A DNA stretch of 27,917 nt from Theionarchaea archaeon (GTDB lineage Archaea > Methanobacteriota_B > Thermococci > Methanofastidiosales > SZ-28-30), in NCBI GenBank assembly GCA_018992685.1, contig JACVGT010000043.1, forward strand, positions 1 to 27,917. Reading direction: 5' to 3'. The first letter of the stretch is position 1; every line of letters begins with the position of its first letter. Positions 286-27,917 of the stretch are shown piece by piece. The notes under the pieces are model-generated. The model worked only from the letters and a program-made list of their open reading frames with translations. It did not search any database and was not told the DNA's origin. Both the position numbers and the translations under genes were made by a program.

Positions 286-1761
286 TTACTCCTCGTGGAA
301 CACTTGGGCTGTGTAAACCTGCACCATCAACCTGCCCTGTTTCCAGTAATCGGCGGAAAGACCTGCCTTAACACACAACTGAGAAAGAAACTCCTCTGGA
401 TCTGGAAGTTGCTCCCATACCTGTGGAAGATATGTTGCCTTTTGTCTGCCCCACGTAACGATCACGCCTTTCTCTCTTATCTTCTCGCACAAGTCTTCAT
501 TGTCCTTATACCATATACGATGTGGTGTAGTGAGAACAGATATCTCAACAGATACCTCTCCAAGCTCATCATACGTAAGGGGCATGAACCGAGGATCTCT
601 CAGTGCGGCATTGACCGAATTCTTCATGACAGCCCGGTAGAGTGGGGTTCCCCATGTGAAGGTCCCAATGCACCCTCTGAGCATTCCCTTCTTATTCAGA
701 GTAACGAAACATGCTCCATTCTCTTTCAATTGCTGTGAAATGTCTGATTCATCAACATCAGGGAATGTACCCTCACTCAGGTATTGTTCCAGCGTTTGCC
801 TGGCCAACTGAAGCAGAAATCTCTGCTCCTGTTCATTCAGCATTGATTGATTATCAATTGAGAGTGCTCCGCAAAATGCTATTCCCATGTACCCCACCAC
901 CTGTTCTTTCCCTCCTGCAGTATCTCCTGAAGTTCTGTAGTCCAGGAGACTCCCCTGCCATCCGTTCTGCTGAGCCAAGTACATCACCGTTTCCATAGCT
1001 TTTGTCCCGCACGCTTCGCAGCGCGACATTCTGTCGAAGTCCAGGGCAGGCACGGCCATCGTGCAGGCTTCATCAAGCTCTCGTGCCTCCTCATACGGAT
1101 GATAGTGGCTGAGATCACTGGAGGCAACAACCAACGTTCGATCGTCAATATAAGGAGAAAGTGCAGAGGCAAGTTCCCGAGGGTCAATGTCCCCAATCAC
1201 AATGGGGACTATCTCAAAATCAGAGAGCACAGTCTGCAAGAATGGAAGCTGTACTTCCAGACAGTGCTCTTTAACATCTACATCGGGGACAGTGATAAAC
1301 CCATTCTTTTTCATGTCGGTAACCATGTCAGACACTTTGACCAGGCCCAAGGGTGTCTTATAATGTGTGTAGTCCGGGACAGACGCCCCCTGAAACCGTA
1401 CGTAGTGGGAGGGACCTATAAGAATAACGGTGTCGTAAACATCGTCAAGCTGCCCATAGCAGTATGCTGCAGTCAGTCCTGAATACACATATCCAGCATG
1501 AGGGCACACGAGAGCACGCATACTGGACATATTCAGGTCTGGAACCTGATCCAGGTACATTACAATAGATTGCTCCAATTCTTCCTGTGAAGAAGAGTAG
1601 AATTGTCCTGCCACAGCAGGCAATCGTACGATTTGTACGTCATCTGGTCCCTCAGAAACTTCAGACTCTTCTGAACGAAACGTTCTGATTCCGCAGTACA
1701 CACCTATTAACAGAGTGATTAGCAGGATCGCTCCCCAGTGCCTTCTGGTTGGACTTTTCAT
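286..1761 (-). CDS. Membrane-anchored AmmeMemoRadiSam system protein B-A fusion (Memo-like + AMMECR1)
   Basis: 491 residues. Residues 1-9 are basic (SPTRRHWG), followed by one membrane segment at about 10-27 (AILLITLLIGVYCGI), so the rest should face the outside. A Memo-like (AmmeMemoRadiSam B) domain spans about 45-300, with the family signatures LPAVAGQFY (47-55), CPHAGYVYSG around H88, GPSHY (116-120), the EVQLPFLQ segment and SSDLSHYHPYEEA. An AMMECR1 (A) domain spans about 310-491, with LRGCIGTF (361-368) and KNSVNAALRDPRF. The ATG at 1761 is chosen over the GTG at 1770 because it forms an ATGA overlap with the upstream radical SAM stop and has GGAG about 10 bases before it. The biochemical function of the system is not established; the A, B and radical SAM proteins are known to co-occur. 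The fusion and the export anchor are seen directly; the extracellular location is inferred. Confidence 0.9.
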   Translation of the reverse strand: MKSPTRRHWGAILLITLLIGVYCGIRTFRSEESEVSEGPDDVQIVRLPAVAGQFYSSSQEELEQSIVMYLDQVPDLNMSSMRALVCPHAGYVYSGLTAAYCYGQLDDVYDTVILIGPSHYVRFQGASVPDYTHYKTPLGLVKVSDMVTDMKKNGFITVPDVDVKEHCLEVQLPFLQTVLSDFEIVPIVIGDIDPRELASALSPYIDDRTLVVASSDLSHYHPYEEARELDEACTMAVPALDFDRMSRCEACGTKAMETVMYLAQQNGWQGSLLDYRTSGDTAGGKEQVVGYMGIAFCGALSIDNQSMLNEQEQRFLLQLARQTLEQYLSEGTFPDVDESDISQQLKENGACFVTLNKKGMLRGCIGTFTWGTPLYRAVMKNSVNAALRDPRFMPLTYDELGEVSVEISVLTTPHRIWYKDNEDLCEKIREKGVIVTWGRQKATYLPQVWEQLPDPEEFLSQLCVKAGLSADYWKQGRLMVQVYTAQVFHEE

Positions 1762-2942
1762 TTTGACCACACTCCTGCCACAGGTTCTCCACAGAAATCA
1801 CATGCTCCCTGGGAAATGTGCATCTGCATAACGAGGAACCCGTTCCTCTCAACCACTACCTTCTGGCAGGAAGGACACACCGTCTGCTGCTCCTCAATGC
1901 CTGGCACATTCCCGATATAGACATAGTGCAGCCCTTCCTCTGCAGCGATAGCGTGAGCCTTTTTGAGGATTTCAACAGGAGTGGGGGGCAGATGTTGCAG
2001 CTTGTAATCAGGATGAAATCGGGAAAAATGAAGCGGAAAATCGGGGCCAATGTTCTCATACAGCCATTGACACATCTCACGGATCATGTCCAGATCGTCT
2101 GTCCAGGTGGGAACGACGAGATTGGTTATTTCAACCCACACCTTCTCCTCTTTCAATATTTTCAGAGTGTCGAGCACAGGCTGAAGCATCCCTGCATTAA
2201 GTTCGTGATAGATTTTATCATCAAAGCTCTTCAGGTCCACGTTGGCTGCATCCAGATACTGGCACAAGTCTCTCAGGGGAAGCTCGTTCATGTAGCCATT
2301 GGTCACCCAGATATTCTTGATTTTTCTTTCTGTGGCAATTCGGGCTGTATCGTACATGTACTCATACCAGGCTGTGGGTTCGCTGTAGGTATAGGCGATG
2401 CTCTGGCATCCTCCCTGTTCTGCTCTCATCACCACCTCCTGCGGGAACAATTCCATGTTTGTGGTTTCTTCCGGGCTTCTCTGAGATATTTCCCAGTTCT
2501 GGCAGTTGAGGCACCTAAAGTTACACCCTGCAGTGGCCAGGGAATAAACAGAAGAAGAAGGAAGGAAGTGGAAGAGGGGTTTTTTCTCTACAGGGTCTAC
2601 GTGCACAGCACAGGGATTTCCATATGCCAGCGTGTATAGTGTACCCTTGTAGTTAGTTTTGTTGCGGCATACACTCCCGATTCCTTCTCGTAGCACACAC
2701 TGGTTGGGGCAGACCTGGCACTTGACGTAATCTCCAAGGGTAATATAGTGATATCCCTCCTTAGACCACTTCCAGGGCTGTCCACTGCTGCTGGATTCAG
2801 GAATGGGTTCACGCTGCAATAGTCTAGAGATCCCATATCCGCCCAAAGCAATTGCAGCTCCCGCCACCACAGACTTTTTAATGAAGTCTCTTCGCGATAT
2901 GGGTTCTCTACTTTCCATGCAGAGAGCTAATCCTTGGGTCAT
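1758..2942 (-). CDS. AmmeMemoRadiSam system radical SAM enzyme with Tat signal
   Basis: 394 residues from the chosen ATG at 2942, which has GGAG ten bases upstream; ATG 2918 and ATG 2993 are alternatives. Near the N-terminus is a twin-arginine motif SRRDFIKK followed by a hydrophobic stretch (VVAGAAIALGGYGI), as in Tat-exported proteins. A Cys cluster (CQVCPNQC) precedes the radical SAM motif CNFRCLNC (CX3CX2C; Cys 140, 144 and 147), which binds the 4Fe-4S cluster and SAM. The C-terminus has a CPSC...CDFC zinc-ribbon-like pair. KKPLFHFLPS before the CX3CX2C is typical of this family (pflA-like, COG1180). It is translationally coupled (ATGA) to the downstream B-A fusion, so the complete system is encoded in two genes. 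Export of an oxygen-sensitive Fe-S enzyme is unusual; the Tat motif is clear, but its use is inference. Confidence 0.9.
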   Translation of the reverse strand: MTQGLALCMESREPISRRDFIKKSVVAGAAIALGGYGISRLLQREPIPESSSSGQPWKWSKEGYHYITLGDYVKCQVCPNQCVLREGIGSVCRNKTNYKGTLYTLAYGNPCAVHVDPVEKKPLFHFLPSSSVYSLATAGCNFRCLNCQNWEISQRSPEETTNMELFPQEVVMRAEQGGCQSIAYTYSEPTAWYEYMYDTARIATERKIKNIWVTNGYMNELPLRDLCQYLDAANVDLKSFDDKIYHELNAGMLQPVLDTLKILKEEKVWVEITNLVVPTWTDDLDMIREMCQWLYENIGPDFPLHFSRFHPDYKLQHLPPTPVEILKKAHAIAAEEGLHYVYIGNVPGIEEQQTVCPSCQKVVVERNGFLVMQMHISQGACDFCGEPVAGVWSK

Positions 2943-3045
2943 AAAAGGATTTCTCCTGTGGGCCAAAGAGTCACCACCCCCGGGAAAAATCATGCCACAG
3001 GACGCATCACTAGAGCATTCTCAATCAGAGAGGACAAAGGAAAAG

Positions 3046-3053
3046 TTTATATT
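3046..3053 (+). promoter_or_regulatory. TATA box for the winged-helix/transglutaminase-like pair
   Basis: TTTATATT with purine-rich sequence (GGAAAAG) just upstream, as expected for an archaeal BRE/TATA. Transcription would start near 3073-3078, just before GGTGA (3077-3081) and the GTG at 3086. It sits in the short gap between divergent operons. Confidence 0.5.
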
Positions 3054-3085
3054 ACTCTACATGAGGATAGTTTCCTGGTGATTAC

Positions 3086-4057
3086 GTGGGATTAGAGAAC
3101 GATATTTTGAGAACTTTGAACAGGGGACCTCGGACCTTTGAGGGACTGAAAACTGAATTTCCCCACAAGAACCTTGTCCAAATTCTCATAACTATGGAAA
3201 AGAAGAACCTGGCAGAGAACAGAGAGGGGGCCTGGTTCATAACCGAAAAAGGGCAGGCAAGAATGTCCCGGAGAGGCTATGCACTGGCCAGTCTGTTGGT
3301 TATTCCCATCGTTGTGTTTGTTCTCCTGTCAGCTCAGTATCAGGCTGCTTATACGGACGTATTGAGCCAGAATGAAACACTCCTGCGCCAGAAGCAAGAC
3401 GCTGATTCTCAGCTATCTCAGATGAATGCACATGTCCAGCAGGCAGAAGGGAGATACCAATCCGTTCTGGACGAATTAGCAGAAGAAGAGGAAAAGACTT
3501 CTCAGTTGAATGAATCACTTGCTGCCTCTCAGAACTCATTGAATTCTGCACAAGAAGAACTCTTGTATTTCCAGTGCCTGGAACAGTGCACCCCAAACAC
3601 GTTCGTGACTGTGGATAATACATATGTAAAGGCAAAGGTAGAGGAGATAACTTCAGGACTCACAACCCTCAAACAGAGGCAAGTAGCAGTGTTCAATTTT
3701 GTACGGGATGACATTGAAGATGACGAGTCTGTGTTCCGGTTCGGCAGAACGGATCTGTGGGAGTACCCTGAGGACATTCTCAGACGTGGGAAAGGACATT
3801 ACGAAGACAAGTACCTGTTGCTTCTGACCATGCTACGCATGGTGGGAACTCCTTCGGAGCATGTAAAATTCATAGCTGCAGAAGTGGATGGCTATAGTGG
3901 CTGGATCTGGGTGGAGGTGTATGATGGAACTACCTGGTGGATGCTGGATCCCTTTGAAGGTTTTGGCTTTACCACGACTCCAAAAGATGAGTTCTATGAA
4001 GAATACACGGTAGAGGTGATATGGTGGTTCAACGATGTACAGTACCGGAGAGTGTGA
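3086..4057 (+). CDS. Winged-helix, membrane, coiled-coil protein with inactive transglutaminase-like domain
   Basis: 323 residues; GTG start with GGTGA five bases upstream. Residues 1-58 look like a cytoplasmic winged helix (DILRTLNRGPRTFEGL ... WFITEKGQARM). One membrane helix lies at about 64-84. A heptad-rich, Gln/Glu-rich coiled coil lies at about 92-160. The C-terminal 170-323 aligns with the transglutaminase-like domain of the next gene. In that alignment the catalytic Cys (GDCEDRS in the neighbour) is Tyr239 (GHYEDKY) and the catalytic His (GHAW) is Trp273 (GWIW), while Asp288 remains. The domain should therefore bind rather than cleave or cross-link. The layout (DNA-binding domain inside, sensor-like domain outside) suggests a one-component transmembrane regulator; that role is inference. 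It ends five bases before the next ATG. Confidence 0.75.
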   Translation: MGLENDILRTLNRGPRTFEGLKTEFPHKNLVQILITMEKKNLAENREGAWFITEKGQARMSRRGYALASLLVIPIVVFVLLSAQYQAAYTDVLSQNETLLRQKQDADSQLSQMNAHVQQAEGRYQSVLDELAEEEEKTSQLNESLAASQNSLNSAQEELLYFQCLEQCTPNTFVTVDNTYVKAKVEEITSGLTTLKQRQVAVFNFVRDDIEDDESVFRFGRTDLWEYPEDILRRGKGHYEDKYLLLLTMLRMVGTPSEHVKFIAAEVDGYSGWIWVEVYDGTTWWMLDPFEGFGFTTTPKDEFYEEYTVEVIWWFNDVQYRRV

Positions 4058-4061
4058 TATC

Positions 4062-4946
4062 ATGAACAAGAAACCAGTGCTCCTGGCTTGCGGATTGGCT
4101 GCAGTCATGATTGTCTTTATGGGCACAACCTATCAGTACTCTGTCCTACAGCAGGAAGAACTCGACAAGAGCGTCTCCATAACTGAGGAAACACAGAGGG
4201 TGAGAGGAGAAATCACCTCCGCTGAATCGGGGCTTCAACAAACTGAGCAGAAGATTGCGGAAACGGAAGATCTCATACCTGTGGAGCAACAGGAACAGGC
4301 AGGACTCAGGCAGCAGATTGATGAACTCGATTCACAAGAATCTGTTCTGGAAAGTGAAATAGACCTTCAGAAGAGGATTCTGACCAAAGATCCCCGGGTG
4401 CTCATTACAACTGATGACCCAGTTGTCATTGCCAAGGTTGAGGAAGTGACCCGTCTGTGCAGGACAACGGAAGAAAAGCAGCAGGCCATCTTTGAGTATG
4501 TGCGCAAAGAGATAGAGTACGTCACAGAAGGAAATCCCAAAGAGTGGAAATACCCCAAAGAATTCCTGGCCTTCAAATTCGATTTCTGGCAGCTACCGAG
4601 GGAGACCATTGAGTGGAGAAAGGGCGACTGCGAAGACAGGTCCATTCTGTTGTGTACCATGATGCGCATAGCAGGTGTTCCGGCGAGTAACGTAAAGGTA
4701 GTACTTGGAGTGATCCATTACTCGGGGGGCATGAGCGGTCATGCATGGATTGAGTTCGAAATGGGAGGTACCTGGTATGCTCTGGAATCAACCTGCCCCA
4801 CGTGTAACTATATCGAGAAGGATCTATACTACAGCTATTTCAATCCTGATCTCTGGGGATGGTTTAATGACAAGGAATATCATGACCTGAAGTCAGCTGA
4901 CTCTAATTCGGGTGCTCTGATAGGCAGTGAAACCTCTTATTTCTAA
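4062..4946 (+). CDS. Membrane-anchored transglutaminase-like protease/transferase
   Basis: 294 residues. The N-terminal segment 5-24 is a membrane anchor (VLLACGLAAVMIVFM), followed by a coiled coil at about 30-108 (TEETQRVRGEITSAESGLQQ and similar). A transglutaminase-like domain at about 115-275 keeps Cys190 in KGDCEDRSILL and His227 in SGHAWIEF. The third position is Glu242 (WYALEST) instead of the usual Asp. The family contains thiol enzymes that hydrolyse or cross-link peptides, and the orientation predicts an extracellular active site. A CPTC pair at 245-248 may bind metal or form a disulphide. The start follows the previous stop by four bases, so the two genes form an operon and are paralogues of each other. 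Substrate is unknown. Confidence 0.75.
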   Translation: MNKKPVLLACGLAAVMIVFMGTTYQYSVLQQEELDKSVSITEETQRVRGEITSAESGLQQTEQKIAETEDLIPVEQQEQAGLRQQIDELDSQESVLESEIDLQKRILTKDPRVLITTDDPVVIAKVEEVTRLCRTTEEKQQAIFEYVRKEIEYVTEGNPKEWKYPKEFLAFKFDFWQLPRETIEWRKGDCEDRSILLCTMMRIAGVPASNVKVVLGVIHYSGGMSGHAWIEFEMGGTWYALESTCPTCNYIEKDLYYSYFNPDLWGWFNDKEYHDLKSADSNSGALIGSETSYF

Positions 4947-5314
4947 TTTTTTCCTCTTTGACTTCTTATTCTTCATTGAGAATCAAAACAGATTCTTATG
5001 AGGTATTTCTTCTGGCTGTTCCGGTCTGGTGAAAGAGCTTCCCGACCACGTGAGTCAGCATCCTTTAAGGAACACGTACCCCATCCAGTGGTGGTTTCAT
5101 CTGGCGTCCAGAATATCAGAGTACACCTATTCAAATCCTCGATTGAAGGGAGGAATGCTTTGTCATGGGGAAATCCGCCTGTTTGTCCTTCCCCTTTCCG
5201 AAACCTATTTATATACCTAAGTAAAGACAATGTATTATTCAGCTCAAAACAGTTGCCTAGGGAGTACTGAGTAATGGCGTGGAAATCTCAAATTGCCTTA
5301 AGGGAGGTGACAAA
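4947..5314. other. 368-base intergenic region: terminator, empty stretch, promoter and leader
   Basis: A T-run (4947-4959) immediately after the stop codon can terminate the transglutaminase operon. From about 4961 to 5200 I see no gene; short open frames on both strands lack ribosome-binding sites and family resemblance. A promoter lies at 5198-5216, followed by an untranslated leader of about 75 bases that ends in a strong Shine-Dalgarno sequence. Confidence 0.5.
5198..5216 (+). promoter_or_regulatory. BRE/TATA promoter of the SHOCT-protein gene
   Basis: CCGAAAC (BRE-like) runs straight into CTATTTATATACC, a strong archaeal TATA box. Transcription would start near 5238, giving a leader of roughly 75 bases before the ATG at 5315. 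GGGAGGTGA at 5302-5310 is a near-perfect Shine-Dalgarno sequence four bases before that ATG. Confidence 0.65.
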
Positions 5315-7045
5315 ATGAAAAAAGTGATAGTTTGTGTAAGTGCAATGTTGCTCCTACTGAGTGCCATCCCTGTTACAACTGGTGCGGAGCGCATCAAGGT
5401 ACTTGTGGATGAATCTCGGGTAGTCACAATTCCTGAAGAGGAACAAGATGTCTTCATTGAGGAGGTGGACTTCCCTCGATCTGCTGATTGGAAATTCTCT
5501 TTTGATAACGACGATGAGTTTTGGGGTCTTGGCATTCTCTCAAAGAGGATTCAGGAAGTTGCGAGTGTTGATGTCAGGAAATCAGGAAAGCTCAGCTACA
5601 ACTCTCTCAAGAACTATGATGTGCTGATAATAGCCTCATTTGAGGAAAGCTACAGTTCCTCTGAGGCAGATGCCATCAGGCAATTCGTAGAGAATGGAGG
5701 TGGCTTGCTACTATTGGCAGCTCCCGAAGCCTCAAGTAACAGTATTTCACGTTCTTTCGATGTCCAGTTTTCCTCTGAAACAGTAACCATCGCCAGAGAT
5801 AAAGTCGGCACGTCTTCACTAAAATGGTATGCCTGGATCGAAAGAGGCATCTTGATGGGATTTCCTGCAGTGTACTATTCAGAAATCGAAGATTTCAAAT
5901 CCCATCCTGTTACCAGTGGAATCACGGAGTTCACAATGCACGAAGGAATTCCCATCACAGGCTTTGAGTCAGGAAAAGTCCTCGCCACTTCTGGAGATGA
6001 CACATATGCGGACAAATCTGGGATTGGACAGGGCTCCAAGGGTGACGATGAGGAAGAAGGACCTTTTGATATCCTGTTGGCCATGGAAGTGGACAAGGGG
6101 AGAGCAGTCTTCTTCTCAAGCCAGATGTCATTTTGGAACTGCATTGTTCAAAAGGAATCTAAGAACATGGATCTCGTGGTCAATGCAGTAGAATGGCTTG
6201 GCGAACCTGGAGGCCCGTACAAACAGTACAAACTCAAAAATGAACAGGCACAGGGAACACTTTCCAACGCCGTCTCGCTATACCAGAATCACAAGTTTTC
6301 TCAGGCCATAACAGAGTTTGGGAAAGCCATAGAGAGTTTTGAACAATCAAATGAAATATACACCAACGCAGAAGCTAATACTGGTATTGAAGAGGCCAAT
6401 ACCTACATTGAGAAGTGCAACATCGGAAATGAAGCTAATACCTTCTTTGATCAGGCTATGGACTACTATGGTAAACGGGAATACGAGAGCGCTATCGAAG
6501 AGTTCGCCAAAGCTCAGGAGAAATATCAGGAGATCGAGTATACAGAACGGGCTCAAGAATGTACAGACAAGGTAGAAGAAAGCCAGGCTTGGATTTCCCT
6601 CAGAGATGAGGCAACTCAGTTGCTGGACCAGGGAGAAGAATCACTCAAGACAGCCCCGAGCACCTTCAACACGTCAGGATACGAACAGAGCAGAACAATA
6701 TTCGAACAGGCCAAAACAAAGTGGGAAGAGTACGATGACCCGGAAAAGGAAACTACGTGTCAGGAAAAGATCGATCTGTGCAACCAGGAAATCGCTAGGA
6801 TCGAGAAGTTCAGGATGATGACCATCATAGTGGTGGTAGTCGTTGTAGTGATCGTCATTGTAGTAGTGGTGGTTCTGGTGAAGAGGAAAAAGCCAAAGCC
6901 AGTGGAAGCTGCCGCTCCAGAACAGCCTGCTCCACCTGGGGAAGGGGAGAAAAGTGCTCTGGAGACATTAGACGAACGGTATGCCAAAGGGGAAATCGCC
7001 AAAGAGGAATACGAAAAGCTGAAATCAATACTGGAGAAGGAGTGA
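5315..7045 (+). CDS. Secreted GATase-like/TPR membrane protein with C-terminal SHOCT motif
   Basis: 576 residues from ATG 5315, preceded by GGGAGGTGA; the in-frame GTG at 5279 lacks such a site. Residues 1-24 form a signal peptide (KKVIVCVSAMLLLLSAIPVTTGA). Residues about 40-270 resemble the class-I glutamine-amidotransferase-like fold found in DUF4350/IFT52-like domains: the strand YDVLIIASFEESY, then AIRQFVENGGGLLLLAAPEA. No catalytic Cys-His-Glu triad is apparent. Residues about 305-490 are Ala/Glu/Gln-rich helical repeats of TPR type (FSQAITEFGKAIESF, YESAIEEFAKAQEKY). A membrane helix at 501-522 consists almost only of Val and Ile, followed by KRKKPKP as a stop-transfer signal. The last 30 residues (ALETLDERYAKGEIAKEEYEKL) are a SHOCT motif facing the cytoplasm. 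Most of the protein is predicted outside. Its role is unknown; a scaffold for assembly is plausible. Confidence 0.75.
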   Translation: MKKVIVCVSAMLLLLSAIPVTTGAERIKVLVDESRVVTIPEEEQDVFIEEVDFPRSADWKFSFDNDDEFWGLGILSKRIQEVASVDVRKSGKLSYNSLKNYDVLIIASFEESYSSSEADAIRQFVENGGGLLLLAAPEASSNSISRSFDVQFSSETVTIARDKVGTSSLKWYAWIERGILMGFPAVYYSEIEDFKSHPVTSGITEFTMHEGIPITGFESGKVLATSGDDTYADKSGIGQGSKGDDEEEGPFDILLAMEVDKGRAVFFSSQMSFWNCIVQKESKNMDLVVNAVEWLGEPGGPYKQYKLKNEQAQGTLSNAVSLYQNHKFSQAITEFGKAIESFEQSNEIYTNAEANTGIEEANTYIEKCNIGNEANTFFDQAMDYYGKREYESAIEEFAKAQEKYQEIEYTERAQECTDKVEESQAWISLRDEATQLLDQGEESLKTAPSTFNTSGYEQSRTIFEQAKTKWEEYDDPEKETTCQEKIDLCNQEIARIEKFRMMTIIVVVVVVVIVIVVVVVLVKRKKPKPVEAAAPEQPAPPGEGEKSALETLDERYAKGEIAKEEYEKLKSILEKE

Positions 7046-24842: not shown

Positions 24843-26312
24843 TTAGTTCCAGTCAAATTCCTTGAACTCTTCTTTTTCCTGTCTTTCCTCAAGGGTTCTT
24901 CTGTCAAAAAGATCAATTTGAGCTGGAATGGGAATGGGAACTGCAATCCCCGTGATGATAGCTTCTCCAATGTCCAGTCTCTTCATTTCTTCCTTCAGAT
25001 CAGTAAGGTCGTTTTCAGAAGAATTGATCAGCTGTTCCCTATCTTTGAGATTCGTCAGCAAAAGAATGATGATGGTATTCAATTGTGAAATGATTTCATC
25101 CAGGATCTTCTTAGGCATCTGATCGATTATGCAAAGCCCCAGGTTGAACTTCCTTCCTTCCCGCACGATCTTCTCAAAAACAGTACCACGTGCAAGTTCT
25201 TTGCTCAGCAACGTGTGAGCTTCTTCCAGAACCAGCAGAGTCTTGGGCAGGGACTGATTTCTCCTGCGAGCAGTTCTGAACTGGCCGAGCAGGTACCTTC
25301 CCACAATGCTTGACACAAGGCGGATCACCCATTCATTGTTCTCGTAGTCCCCAAAATCGATGATGACTGTTCCCCCATGAGATATCTTCTTTAAAATGTA
25401 TGTGAGGGAATCGAATTGCTCTCCAACAAACTCATGGGTAGTGATGCGGGCCACCTTCCTCTTTAAGGCAGAAATAGTTTCGAGGTGGATCTCCATCCCG
25501 AAGTCTTCCGAGATCTGTTCTGTTCCCCTGGTTGCAATGTAGTTCAACCAGTCTCTTTCTCTGTGGTGGATGAGATCCAGTGCATCCTGCTGTGCCGAGG
25601 TGAGGTCTGTAATGGCTGTCAATTCTGAAGGGTTGATCAGGGTACGGGGAATATGTAGGGAAACATCACACTCAGCTCCTTTTAATCCCAGCACAAACAC
25701 GTTATCCAAGCCTCCTAGGCCATCCGGGTGGTATCCATATTCAGAATGGACGTCAAATACCACAGTGGAAATGGATCTGGCCTTCACTTCTCTCAGGATG
25801 ACTTTCACCGCATTGGATTTACCTGAACCTGTCTTTCCGAAAACTCCTGCATGCTTGGAAACAAAGGTATCAACATCCAGAAAAATAGGAACTGTCATGT
25901 CTCTCACCGTTCCTATGCATATCTTGGATTGTGTTGCGGACAAGAAAGCGAGATCCTGTTCTGTCACTCTACGGACAGGAGACAGGTATTTAGGAAGAGA
26001 TTTTGCTCCCCGAATGCGCTTTGAATCCTCGTCCAAGATGCCGAGGAGACTGGCAAAGGCCGTGTAATAAAACTGTGGACCATACAGTCCCTGAATAGTA
26101 TCGACAGTGTCTGGATAGGATAGGGCTGCGATCTTATCAGGGAGAACAGATTCCCCCAAGTGTCTGGCTTCCAATTCATGTATCCGTGCCAGATAGGCGT
26201 ATTTTGATTCGATAACCACCAGATCACCCACTTTGACATTTTCAAACTCCTCAGCATCGTGAATTCGAAACTGCACTGTCTGGGTGGAGGAGGAAATCAC
26301 CTTCCCAATCAT
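24843..26312 (-). CDS. herA: HerA-type hexameric ATPase/DNA translocase
   Basis: 489 residues. A HAS-barrel N-terminal domain (about 1-110) precedes an FtsK/HerA RecA-like ATPase. Walker A is GKTGSGKS (159-166), Walker B is LLVLEEAH (about 357-364), and the sensor-type segment GLCIIDQMPKKI follows. The C-terminus PIPAQIDLFDRR is typical of HerA. Canonical HerA works with the nuclease NurA and Mre11-Rad50 in DNA end resection, but none of these genes is nearby. This may thus be an orphan paralogue, for example one with an anti-mobile-element role, or the single HerA of the genome placed elsewhere. The ATG is leaderless: the TATA box centre lies about 25 bases upstream. Its promoter and first codons are duplicated at 27712-27774. 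Confidence 0.88.
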   Translation of the reverse strand: MIGKVISSSTQTVQFRIHDAEEFENVKVGDLVVIESKYAYLARIHELEARHLGESVLPDKIAALSYPDTVDTIQGLYGPQFYYTAFASLLGILDEDSKRIRGAKSLPKYLSPVRRVTEQDLAFLSATQSKICIGTVRDMTVPIFLDVDTFVSKHAGVFGKTGSGKSNAVKVILREVKARSISTVVFDVHSEYGYHPDGLGGLDNVFVLGLKGAECDVSLHIPRTLINPSELTAITDLTSAQQDALDLIHHRERDWLNYIATRGTEQISEDFGMEIHLETISALKRKVARITTHEFVGEQFDSLTYILKKISHGGTVIIDFGDYENNEWVIRLVSSIVGRYLLGQFRTARRRNQSLPKTLLVLEEAHTLLSKELARGTVFEKIVREGRKFNLGLCIIDQMPKKILDEIISQLNTIIILLLTNLKDREQLINSSENDLTDLKEEMKRLDIGEAIITGIAVPIPIPAQIDLFDRRTLEERQEKEEFKEFDWN

Positions 26313-26362
26313 ACATGAGTATTGAAAGCTGCGTTTTTAAAGGTTCACCGGGACGAACAACG
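26300..26362 (-). repeat. 63-base exact repeat, copy 1 (promoter and start of herA)
   Basis: Identical over all 63 bases to 27712-27774. This copy contains the herA TATA box, the transcription start region, the ATG and the first codons. Homology stops abruptly on both sides. Confidence 0.95.
26334..26343 (-). promoter_or_regulatory. TATA box of herA
   Basis: On the minus strand CCTTTAAAAA is centred about 25 bases before ATG 26312, so transcription should begin at the start codon. The same element is duplicated at 27746-27755 and should drive the lipoprotein gene. Confidence 0.6.
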
Positions 26363-26474
26363 CTGATACGAAAAAGAGGGCAGAGAATGTCATGGGATAG
26401 ACGGTGATACACCAGTACGTTGTCAGGAATTGAACAGAAGAAAAAAGAGAAAGCAAGAAAGAAAGAGAAAAGAA

Positions 26475-26496
26475 AATGATTCAGTGAATGATTCAG
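26475..26496. repeat. Two direct copies of AATGATTCAG
   Basis: AATGATTCAG occurs at 26475-26484 and 26487-26496, separated by TG. The second unit overlaps the start of the dispersed 56-base repeat (copy B), so it may be a local duplication at that element's edge. Confidence 0.6.
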
Positions 26497-26546
26497 CAAA
26501 GTGATCCCACGGTGATGCAATGACATATCATAGTAGGTAAAAGAGA
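26491..26546. repeat. Dispersed 56-base repeat, copy B
   Basis: About 80% identical to 19330-19385, with the same first 11 and last 11 bases. It lies between the lipoprotein terminator and the herA promoter and is noncoding. Confidence 0.6.
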
Positions 26547-26549
26547 AAA

Positions 26550-26566
26550 AGAAGGCACAACCTTCT
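26550..26566 (-). terminator. Stem-loop and T-run terminator of the lipoprotein gene
   Basis: On the minus strand AGAAGG, a five-base loop and CCTTCT form a perfect stem followed by TTTTCTCTTTT. It lies about 30 bases past the lipoprotein stop codon, the expected place. Confidence 0.6.
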
Positions 26567-26594
26567 CTTCTCACTGAAATTCAGCATTCGATTG

Positions 26595-27701
26595 TCATAA
26601 AGAACTCTTCTGTTGCGGTGGGTTGGAGAATATGTACAGTCTCCCGAAGCGATTACTGTATGCCACACGGGTTCCATCAGGACTGACAGCGACTGCAAAA
26701 ACAGCATCAAAACTCAGGTCTCTCCGCAATACATTGCCGTCTCTATCTACTACTATAAAGAACGGGGGCAGAGAATCACAGCCTAGAGCAATGTACTCTG
26801 CTCCTGGTGTCGAAGCCAGGTATTGGTTATCTCTGCCAACAGATTTCTTCCATACCAATTCTCCATCCCGGGTCAACTTGTACAGGTCCTTATTACATGC
26901 CGCAATGATGTACTGGCTGTCACTGGTAATAGTGACAGAGGTAAGCAGGTCTTCTAAAGGATAGGACCAGACATCTTGACTGTCCAGCGTCGATACTTTG
27001 ATCTGTGGCTCTTCTCCCATGAATCGGTACACTAGATAGGAACTGTCGGGTGAGAAAGCAACTGTCCTGTTACGACTTCCTGTATAAATCCGTCCCGCAT
27101 CTATTGACCAGATCAGTTCTCCATCACGCACACAGTTGATCTTGTCCTCAGAATCAGTGAACACAACACATGAACCATCGGGTGCCACTGAAACCTGTTC
27201 AATGGATTCCCCGTCATCGTATGTCCAGAGAACTGCACCCTCTTTGGAAAAGCCATAGAGAATTCCCGTATCATTTGTGCCTGCAGCCATGAGGTTCCCG
27301 GAGGCCCCGATGGCAGCTCTATTGACACGTTGTCCTAAATCTCTCTGCCACAAGACTTCACCTGTCAGGCTCAACAATGCTGCACCTCCCGTTTGTGGAG
27401 AATTCTTGTAGGTCGTGACAAAAAGCGTATCTCCGCAAAGCACCATCCCGTCGCTCCCCAAGCCTTCGGTCTGCCACACAAGATTTCCATCCCAATCAAG
27501 ACAGAATACCCTGCCGCCACAGCCAAAAAGGAATTCTTCAGTACCTATGAGGTCGACTACGTCCGCCTTCAGCGTTACTTTTCCATTTGTTGCCTTTCTG
27601 TCCATGTTCTCGTCCACGTTCTGATCAATACACCCTGCCAGGCCAATAAGCAAGCAGCAGACCAATACGCTTTGCAGTTTGTGATACCCATTTCTATTCA
27701 T
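26595..27701 (-). CDS. Lipoprotein with beta-propeller (PQQ/WD-like) repeats
   Basis: 368 residues from ATG 27701, preceded by GGAAGGAGG. A lipoprotein signal ends at LIGLAGC with Cys24 as the lipidation site. The rest is built of about seven beta repeats, each closing with a 'G.LVW' or 'G.V.W' segment (DWDGNLVW, LTGEVLW, KEGAVLW, RDGELIW, RDGELVW, RDGNVLR) and often SPDG/SxDSxY turns, as in PQQ- or WD40-like propellers. Such proteins are outer-surface binding or scaffold proteins; no catalytic motif is seen. The start codon overlaps the stop of a short upstream frame (27698-27724) in an ATGA arrangement. An in-frame extension up to 27842 runs through the duplicated promoter and IS end and is not considered real. 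Confidence 0.8.
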   Translation of the reverse strand: MNRNGYHKLQSVLVCCLLIGLAGCIDQNVDENMDRKATNGKVTLKADVVDLIGTEEFLFGCGGRVFCLDWDGNLVWQTEGLGSDGMVLCGDTLFVTTYKNSPQTGGAALLSLTGEVLWQRDLGQRVNRAAIGASGNLMAAGTNDTGILYGFSKEGAVLWTYDDGESIEQVSVAPDGSCVVFTDSEDKINCVRDGELIWSIDAGRIYTGSRNRTVAFSPDSSYLVYRFMGEEPQIKVSTLDSQDVWSYPLEDLLTSVTITSDSQYIIAACNKDLYKLTRDGELVWKKSVGRDNQYLASTPGAEYIALGCDSLPPFFIVVDRDGNVLRRDLSFDAVFAVAVSPDGTRVAYSNRFGRLYIFSNPPQQKSSL

Positions 27702-27724
27702 AGATCGTCCTCCTTCCCAATCAT
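27698..27724 (-). CDS. Eight-codon leaderless upstream frame carried by the duplicated herA promoter
   Basis: ATG 27724 corresponds exactly to the herA start codon in the other repeat copy. Translation reads MIGKEDDL and stops with TGA 27698-27700, which overlaps the lipoprotein ATG (27699-27701) as ATGA. The duplicated TATA box is about 25 bases upstream, so this would be the first codon of the mRNA. MIGK is the herA N-terminus. Real translation and coupling to the lipoprotein are inferred. Confidence 0.4.
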   Translation of the reverse strand: MIGKEDDL

Positions 27725-27774
27725 ACATGAGTATTGAAAGCTGCGTTTTTAAAGGTTCACCGGGACGAACAACG
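27712..27774 (-). repeat. 63-base exact repeat, copy 2 (captured herA promoter upstream of lipoprotein gene)
   Basis: Identical to 26300-26362. It supplies a TATA box (27746-27755), a start site near 27724 and part of the lipoprotein Shine-Dalgarno region (the GGAAGG half). The repeat ends at 27774, the base before the IS481-like end begins. Confidence 0.95.
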
Positions 27775-27917
27775 TGTAATATCACCAGACATGGGTGACA
27801 CTTTTGACACCACACATAGGTAACACTTCTTATAAGTCTCATGGCAACCGCTCCTCATATCTCGCGTGAGGCGTTGCACCGTTGATGCCCATGTGAGACC
27901 TTTCGTGATTGTAGTAG
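27775..27917 (-). mobile_element. Right end of an IS481-family insertion sequence (partial)
   Basis: The transposase tail at 27839-27917 is followed by a noncoding end containing two 18-base direct repeats, 27784-27801 and 27809-27826 (15 of 18 identical, ACCAgACATgGGTgACAC type), as expected for multiple transposase-binding sites at IS ends. The tip begins TGTAATATCACC at 27775, starting with TG as many IS481/IS3 ends do. The other end lies beyond the window, so target duplications and exact termini cannot be checked. Confidence 0.65.
27839..27917 (-). CDS. IS481-family transposase, C-terminal end (partial)
   Basis: 25 complete codons before TGA 27839-27841 are visible. The tail contains YYNHERSHMGINGATP and ARYEERLP, matching the C-terminal end of DDE/rve-type IS481 transposases ('YN..RPH..L/I.G.TP...Y'). 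The Glu of the DDE triad and the rest lie outside the window. Because the frame is open to the edge and the C-terminus is normal, the element may be intact. Confidence 0.75.
   Translation of the reverse strand, partial: YYNHERSHMGINGATPHARYEERLP

Follow-up and report, generated by a model that had tools for sequence, protein, structure and literature searches.

A conserved tandem of membrane transglutaminase-like proteins in Theionarchaea, one a pseudoenzyme with a probable winged helix

Little is known of how archaea signal from the outside to the inside of the cell, and few of their membrane-bound regulators have been investigated. LapG is a bacterial transglutaminase-like periplasmic protease; its receptor LapD, whose fold is not that of a transglutaminase, signals inside-out. 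In bacterial co-component systems, an HTH protein and the product of the adjacent gene, both tethered to the membrane, make up one sensor (PMC9214523), and ArnR/ArnR1 are archaeal membrane-anchored HTH one-component regulators (PMC6396743). The window analysed here (the whole stretch of 27,917 nt from a Theionarchaea archaeon, in which no Rfam elements were found) carries two adjacent genes for membrane-anchored transglutaminase-like proteins, the first of which has lost its catalytic Cys and His and very probably bears a winged helix. A literature search of incomplete coverage found no description of a transglutaminase-like pair of this type.

Anatomy of the gene pair and its catalytic residues

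The two genes are co-directional paralogues on the plus strand, as the preliminary description had claimed from the sequence, and their coordinates, Pfam matches and membrane helices all agree with that claim. The upstream gene (3086..4057) starts with a GTG at 3086, ends with a TGA at 4055-4057 and encodes a protein of 323 aa (the dead member) comprising a probable winged helix, a membrane helix, a long helix and a transglutaminase-like pseudoenzyme domain. The downstream gene (4062..4946) begins with an ATG at 4062, 4 nt past the end of its neighbour, has its stop at 4946 and encodes a predicted active member of 294 aa, i.e. a membrane helix, a long helix and a transglutaminase-like cysteine hydrolase domain. 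Both assignments combine the ORF translation, the PF01841 profile and AlphaFold models.

In the dead member, the N-terminal winged-helix domain (residues 1-58; 3086..3259), placed in the cytoplasm by topology inference, is followed by a membrane helix (residues 65-83; 3278..3334) identified by hydropathy, a long helical stalk that is a probable coiled coil (residues 87-166; 3344..3583) and the pseudoenzyme domain (residues 169-323; 3590..4054). The active member comprises a membrane helix (residues 6-24; 4077..4133; hydropathy and AlphaFold), a long helical stalk (residues 27-107; 4140..4382) and the transglutaminase-like domain (4386..4895). Both stalks were delimited by stalk comparison and AlphaFold, which predicted one unbroken helix spanning membrane and stalk in each protein (residues 62-167 in the dead member and 4-107 in the active one), with the transglutaminase fold coming after it.

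A promoter-like element recognised by eye at 3039..3054 on the plus strand consists of a purine-rich BRE-like GGAAAAG and the TATA-like TTTATATTA, and a ribosome-binding-like GGTGAT (3077..3082, plus strand) precedes the GTG start. The GTG start, the GGTGAT and the TATA-like element are all conserved in the sister genome (G001), in which the AGGAAAAGTTTATATTACTCTAC block is identical amid an otherwise diverged intergenic region.

Both domains matched Pfam Transglut_core (PF01841; curated cut-off 23 bits), the dead member with 39.9 bits (E 5.5e-10) and the active member with 55.6 bits (E 7.5e-15). Cys190 (codon 4629-4631) and His227 (4740-4742) of the active member correspond to Tyr239 (3800-3802) and Trp273 (3902-3904) of the dead member, exactly as first placed, all codons having been checked; Asp288 (3947-3949) is retained. 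Given the replacement of Cys and His by Tyr and Trp, the upstream product is a pseudoenzyme member of the PF01841 superfamily. Catalysis by the downstream product is predicted from its Cys190 and His227. The third triad position of this protein is Glu242 (4785-4787), which need not signal inactivity, since Glu occupies the same place in other archaeal relatives (L072 and L078).

Among solved structures, LapG was the best Foldseek match to each ectodomain (E 5e-6 and 2e-6), the dead domain aligning to it with a Z of 13.8 over 140 residues; this likeness is one of fold only, the NCBIfam LapG model NF045674 giving 15.8 bits against a cut-off of 320. The fold matches of the dead domain also include the eukaryotic inactive members protein 4.2 and XPC. 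Two cysteine motifs are found only in Theionarchaea: a CxxxC at the end of the stalk of the dead member (residues 164 and 168; 3575-3589) and a CxxC beside the third catalytic residue of the active member (residues 245 and 248; 4794-4805). Both are conserved in the two Theionarchaea genomes and absent from the Methanofastidiosum-family pair, and they could conceivably form a disulfide or metal link, either within one partner or from one to the other.

Several other features of the window were recorded. An AmmeMemoRadiSam pair, kept in the sister genome, is encoded on the minus strand at 286-1770 and 1758-2936. One protein is a Memo-AMMECR1 fusion that has a hydrophobic segment at its N-terminus, the other a radical SAM protein bearing a twin-arginine signal (RRDFIKK); the latter, if exported, would be an enzyme acting outside the cytoplasm. 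The downstream gene at 5279-7045, likewise conserved in the sister genome, encodes a protein that starts with an ABC_transp_aux/GIFT-like domain, continues with TPR-like helices and a membrane helix, and has a SHOCT motif at its C-terminus. The segment encoding VVRPGEPLKTQLSILMYDWEG is present twice in neighbouring frames of the minus strand (26251-26574 and 26595-27842), which suggests a recent duplication or a repeat element.

Distribution, selection and order of events

Among genomes that have this locus, the nearest is that of Theionarchaea archaeon SZ_28-30, which belongs to one genus with the genome of the window. Identity over the dead protein is 75%; the downstream gene is shared, as are the divergent AmmeMemoRadiSam genes. 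The dead/active tandem was found in both Theionarchaea genomes (2/2) and in eight of the ten genomes of the Methanofastidiosum family; the order's other two families (nine genomes) yielded none. Searches of the 115 genomes of the phylum and of 396 archaeal genomes brought up no additional dead member of this kind, and the lineage is sharply bounded, its members scoring >360 bits against 58 bits for the highest-scoring outsider, which is an active singleton. On viral contigs, 32 loci were recorded at 23-61% identity. The near-complete Methanofastidiosum-family genome G007 is without the pair, which must thus be dispensable.

The dead protein of the Methanofastidiosum family is 259 aa in length and begins at the membrane helix, all eight orthologues being without a winged helix; no separate winged-helix gene adjoining the pair was recognised by eye in locus L059 of this family. 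The catalytic Cys, His and Asp are replaced by Tyr, Asp and Leu, respectively. In the tree, the dead lineage forms one side of a well-supported branch (99/97), and two independent catalytic losses are ruled out by this single lineage. Catalysis was thus lost once, before the split of Theionarchaea and the Methanofastidiosum family and, on the simplest reading, ahead of any winged helix. A gain rather than a loss of the winged helix is likewise the simplest polarity, since the active paralogues and the singleton relatives that were examined have none. The preliminary description had implied a link between catalytic death and the acquisition of a DNA-binding domain, which the eight dead orthologues without a winged helix do not support. 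For the same reason the original job of the dead subunit was independent of transcription, and any sensor role would have been added later, in Theionarchaea.

In a comparison of the two Theionarchaea genomes, dN/dS was 0.08 in the dead domain, 0.04 in the active domain and 0.31 in the winged helix (0.16 over the whole dead protein). With a value of 0.08, the dead domain is a maintained pseudoenzyme under strong purifying selection; chance or a degenerating pseudogene is ruled out by dN/dS together with residue conservation. This strong conservation, and a Tyr at the former Cys position that is invariant in 9/9 aligned dead members, might also be expected of a domain that is still catalytic through that Tyr or other residues. 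We regard such residual chemistry as most improbable, as the residue in place of the His differs between the families (Trp in one, Asp in the other) and the Methanofastidiosum relatives have also lost the triad Asp, so that no common catalytic set is left in the dead lineage.

Three other archaeal transglutaminase-like genes deserve mention. In L137 (1459-2367, minus strand), Asp replaces the Cys (GDDED) and the His is kept; the protein, which is helical at its N-terminus and shows no clear membrane helix, is apparently an independent dead member. L003, in the same genome as the window (1342-1962, minus strand), lies between two radical-SAM-like genes, a neighbourhood that suggests a peptide-maturation cluster. 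L076, in genome G177, is a singleton membrane transglutaminase-like gene (1429-2145) followed after 25 nt by a gene (2171-3508) whose product is a membrane histidine kinase that carries a sensory domain. This arrangement is another hint that such ectodomains may feed signalling; in a check of the 20 genomes of G177's order, two others gave a weak match.

The stalks, the winged helix and their probable roles

Counted from where the membrane helix ends up to a common landmark in the domain, the stalk is 90 residues long in both the dead and the active member of Theionarchaea; the corresponding values for the Methanofastidiosum family are 83 (dead) and 82 (active), both partners differing by about one heptad between families. 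The stalks of singleton relatives range from almost none to >100 residues, so matched length is no general constant of the family. Heptad periodicity is present in the stalks, although modest. The coiled-coil pairing suggested in the preliminary description appears likely from these joint changes in spacer length, and the partners probably form a parallel hetero-pair through their equal-length stalks, a reading that draws on one independent length change. Alternatively, the two proteins might form separate homodimers that make no contact, the dead protein being an independent one-component sensor that is merely co-transcribed. Co-transcription alone does not imply contact, and the two stalks of Theionarchaea are acidic, with net charges of -11 and -13, so that a hetero-pair is not favoured by charge complementarity. 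We nevertheless consider separate homodimers improbable, because the stalk lengths of the paralogues shift together between families and because the pair remains adjacent even though the genes flanking it differ between Theionarchaea and the Methanofastidiosum family.

Residues 1-58 of the dead member very probably form a winged helix, which is confined to the two Theionarchaea genomes examined. With the isolated region, HTH_45 was the sole Pfam match and lay under its cut-off (E 0.015). The N-terminus of an archaeal Nudix-like protein (L144) resembles the region (E 2.4e-6; pairwise E 7e-6) and itself passes the HTH_45 cut-off, thus lending transitive support. AlphaFold placed three helices in the right order (residues 4-11, 18-24 and 30-44) at a pLDDT of about 50-66; the low confidence of this model reflects the fact that only two sequences carry the domain. 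The preliminary description had the protein fused to a winged helix, which the profile and transitive matches and the three helices support; wing strands are absent from the model. Sequence searches returned no solved relatives of the domain, and no other fusion of it to a transglutaminase domain was found among the 396 archaeal genomes. Nor was any homologue found that combines the winged helix with an intact Cys-His pair.

DNA binding is the commonest role of archaeal winged helices and a likely one for this domain. It is not automatic, since related archaeal winged helices also sit in enzymes (the Nudix-like protein and a polyamine synthase). Thus, the dead paralogue could be a structural or substrate-presenting subunit only, with the winged helix serving as a cytoplasmic protein-binding or anchoring module rather than as a transcription factor. 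This alternative, which we judge unlikely yet worth serious attention, accords with the occurrence of winged helices in enzymes, with the eight genomes whose dead member does without the domain, with its faster evolution relative to the ectodomain (dN/dS 0.31 versus 0.08) and with the promoter regions of the two Theionarchaea genomes, which have no inverted-repeat operator in common. It sits less well with the predominance of DNA binding among archaeal winged helices and with the order of the domains, as a wHTH followed by a single membrane helix and an ectodomain is the standard plan of membrane one-component regulators (CadC, VtrA; PMC9214523).

A possible membrane switch and its relation to known systems

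The reading that we prefer, and to which we give even chances, is an outward-facing membrane complex of enzyme and pseudoenzyme whose dead subunit acquired a DNA-binding domain later, in a single lineage. The catalytic subunit would be a membrane-anchored, outward-facing protein with a LapG-like cysteine-hydrolase/transglutaminase fold, and its dead paralogue a regulatory or substrate-holding subunit, parallel pairing of the stalks bringing the two ectodomains next to each other. The winged helix of the Theionarchaea dead subunit would lie in the cytoplasm, ahead of the protein's one membrane helix. Promoter binding might then respond, through the stalk, to whether substrate in the outer complex is bound, cleaved or absent; we infer both this direction of signalling and the target, which may be the pair's own promoter. 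The preliminary description had proposed that the dead protein may sense what its active partner uses or makes.

Put more broadly, and more tentatively, the locus could be an archaeal switch in which an extracellular enzyme and its dead paralogue pair via matched stalks and the dead subunit bears the DNA-binding domain, a pre-existing complex having been converted by the gain of a winged helix; we hold this to be possible, at somewhat below even odds. If true, the origin of a signalling protein would be visible in steps, from duplication of a surface enzyme through loss of catalysis to acquisition of a DNA-binding domain, the middle stage persisting in the Methanofastidiosum family, and a pseudoenzyme ectodomain would join the kinds of sensor used by two-gene membrane regulators.

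Among described proteins, LapG (with LapD; 4u65, 4fgo and 4fgq) offers the closest solved fold for both ectodomains and is likewise bound by a membrane signalling protein, but it lacks both a membrane anchor and a pseudoenzyme partner. Erythrocyte protein 4.2 and XPC/Rad4 also keep the fold, have lost catalysis and are used for binding; they are eukaryotic, however, and lack a membrane helix, a winged helix and a tandem active partner. The archaeal singletons L072, L073 and L076 share the membrane helix, a stalk of variable length, the transglutaminase-like domain and a C-terminal (F/Y)ND motif, whereas their Cys-His pair is intact and no dead paralogue adjoins them. ArnR is also an archaeal HTH regulator anchored in the membrane, but its HAMP-like and sensory domains are followed by two membrane helices at the C-terminus, and it is not paired with a paralogous enzyme (PMC6396743). 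The arrangement resembles the bacterial VtrA/VtrC and ToxR/ToxS (PMC9214523), in which two adjacent co-directional genes encode one product with an N-terminal HTH, a membrane helix and an ectodomain and another that is a membrane-tethered ectodomain. The pair described here differs from VtrA/VtrC in its long helical stalks and archaeal winged helix, and its ectodomains are not of the VtrA-like or VtrC lipocalin-like folds but are paralogous and transglutaminase-like, one with its Cys-His pair intact. Because of these different ectodomain folds, the pair stands outside the co-component superfamily.
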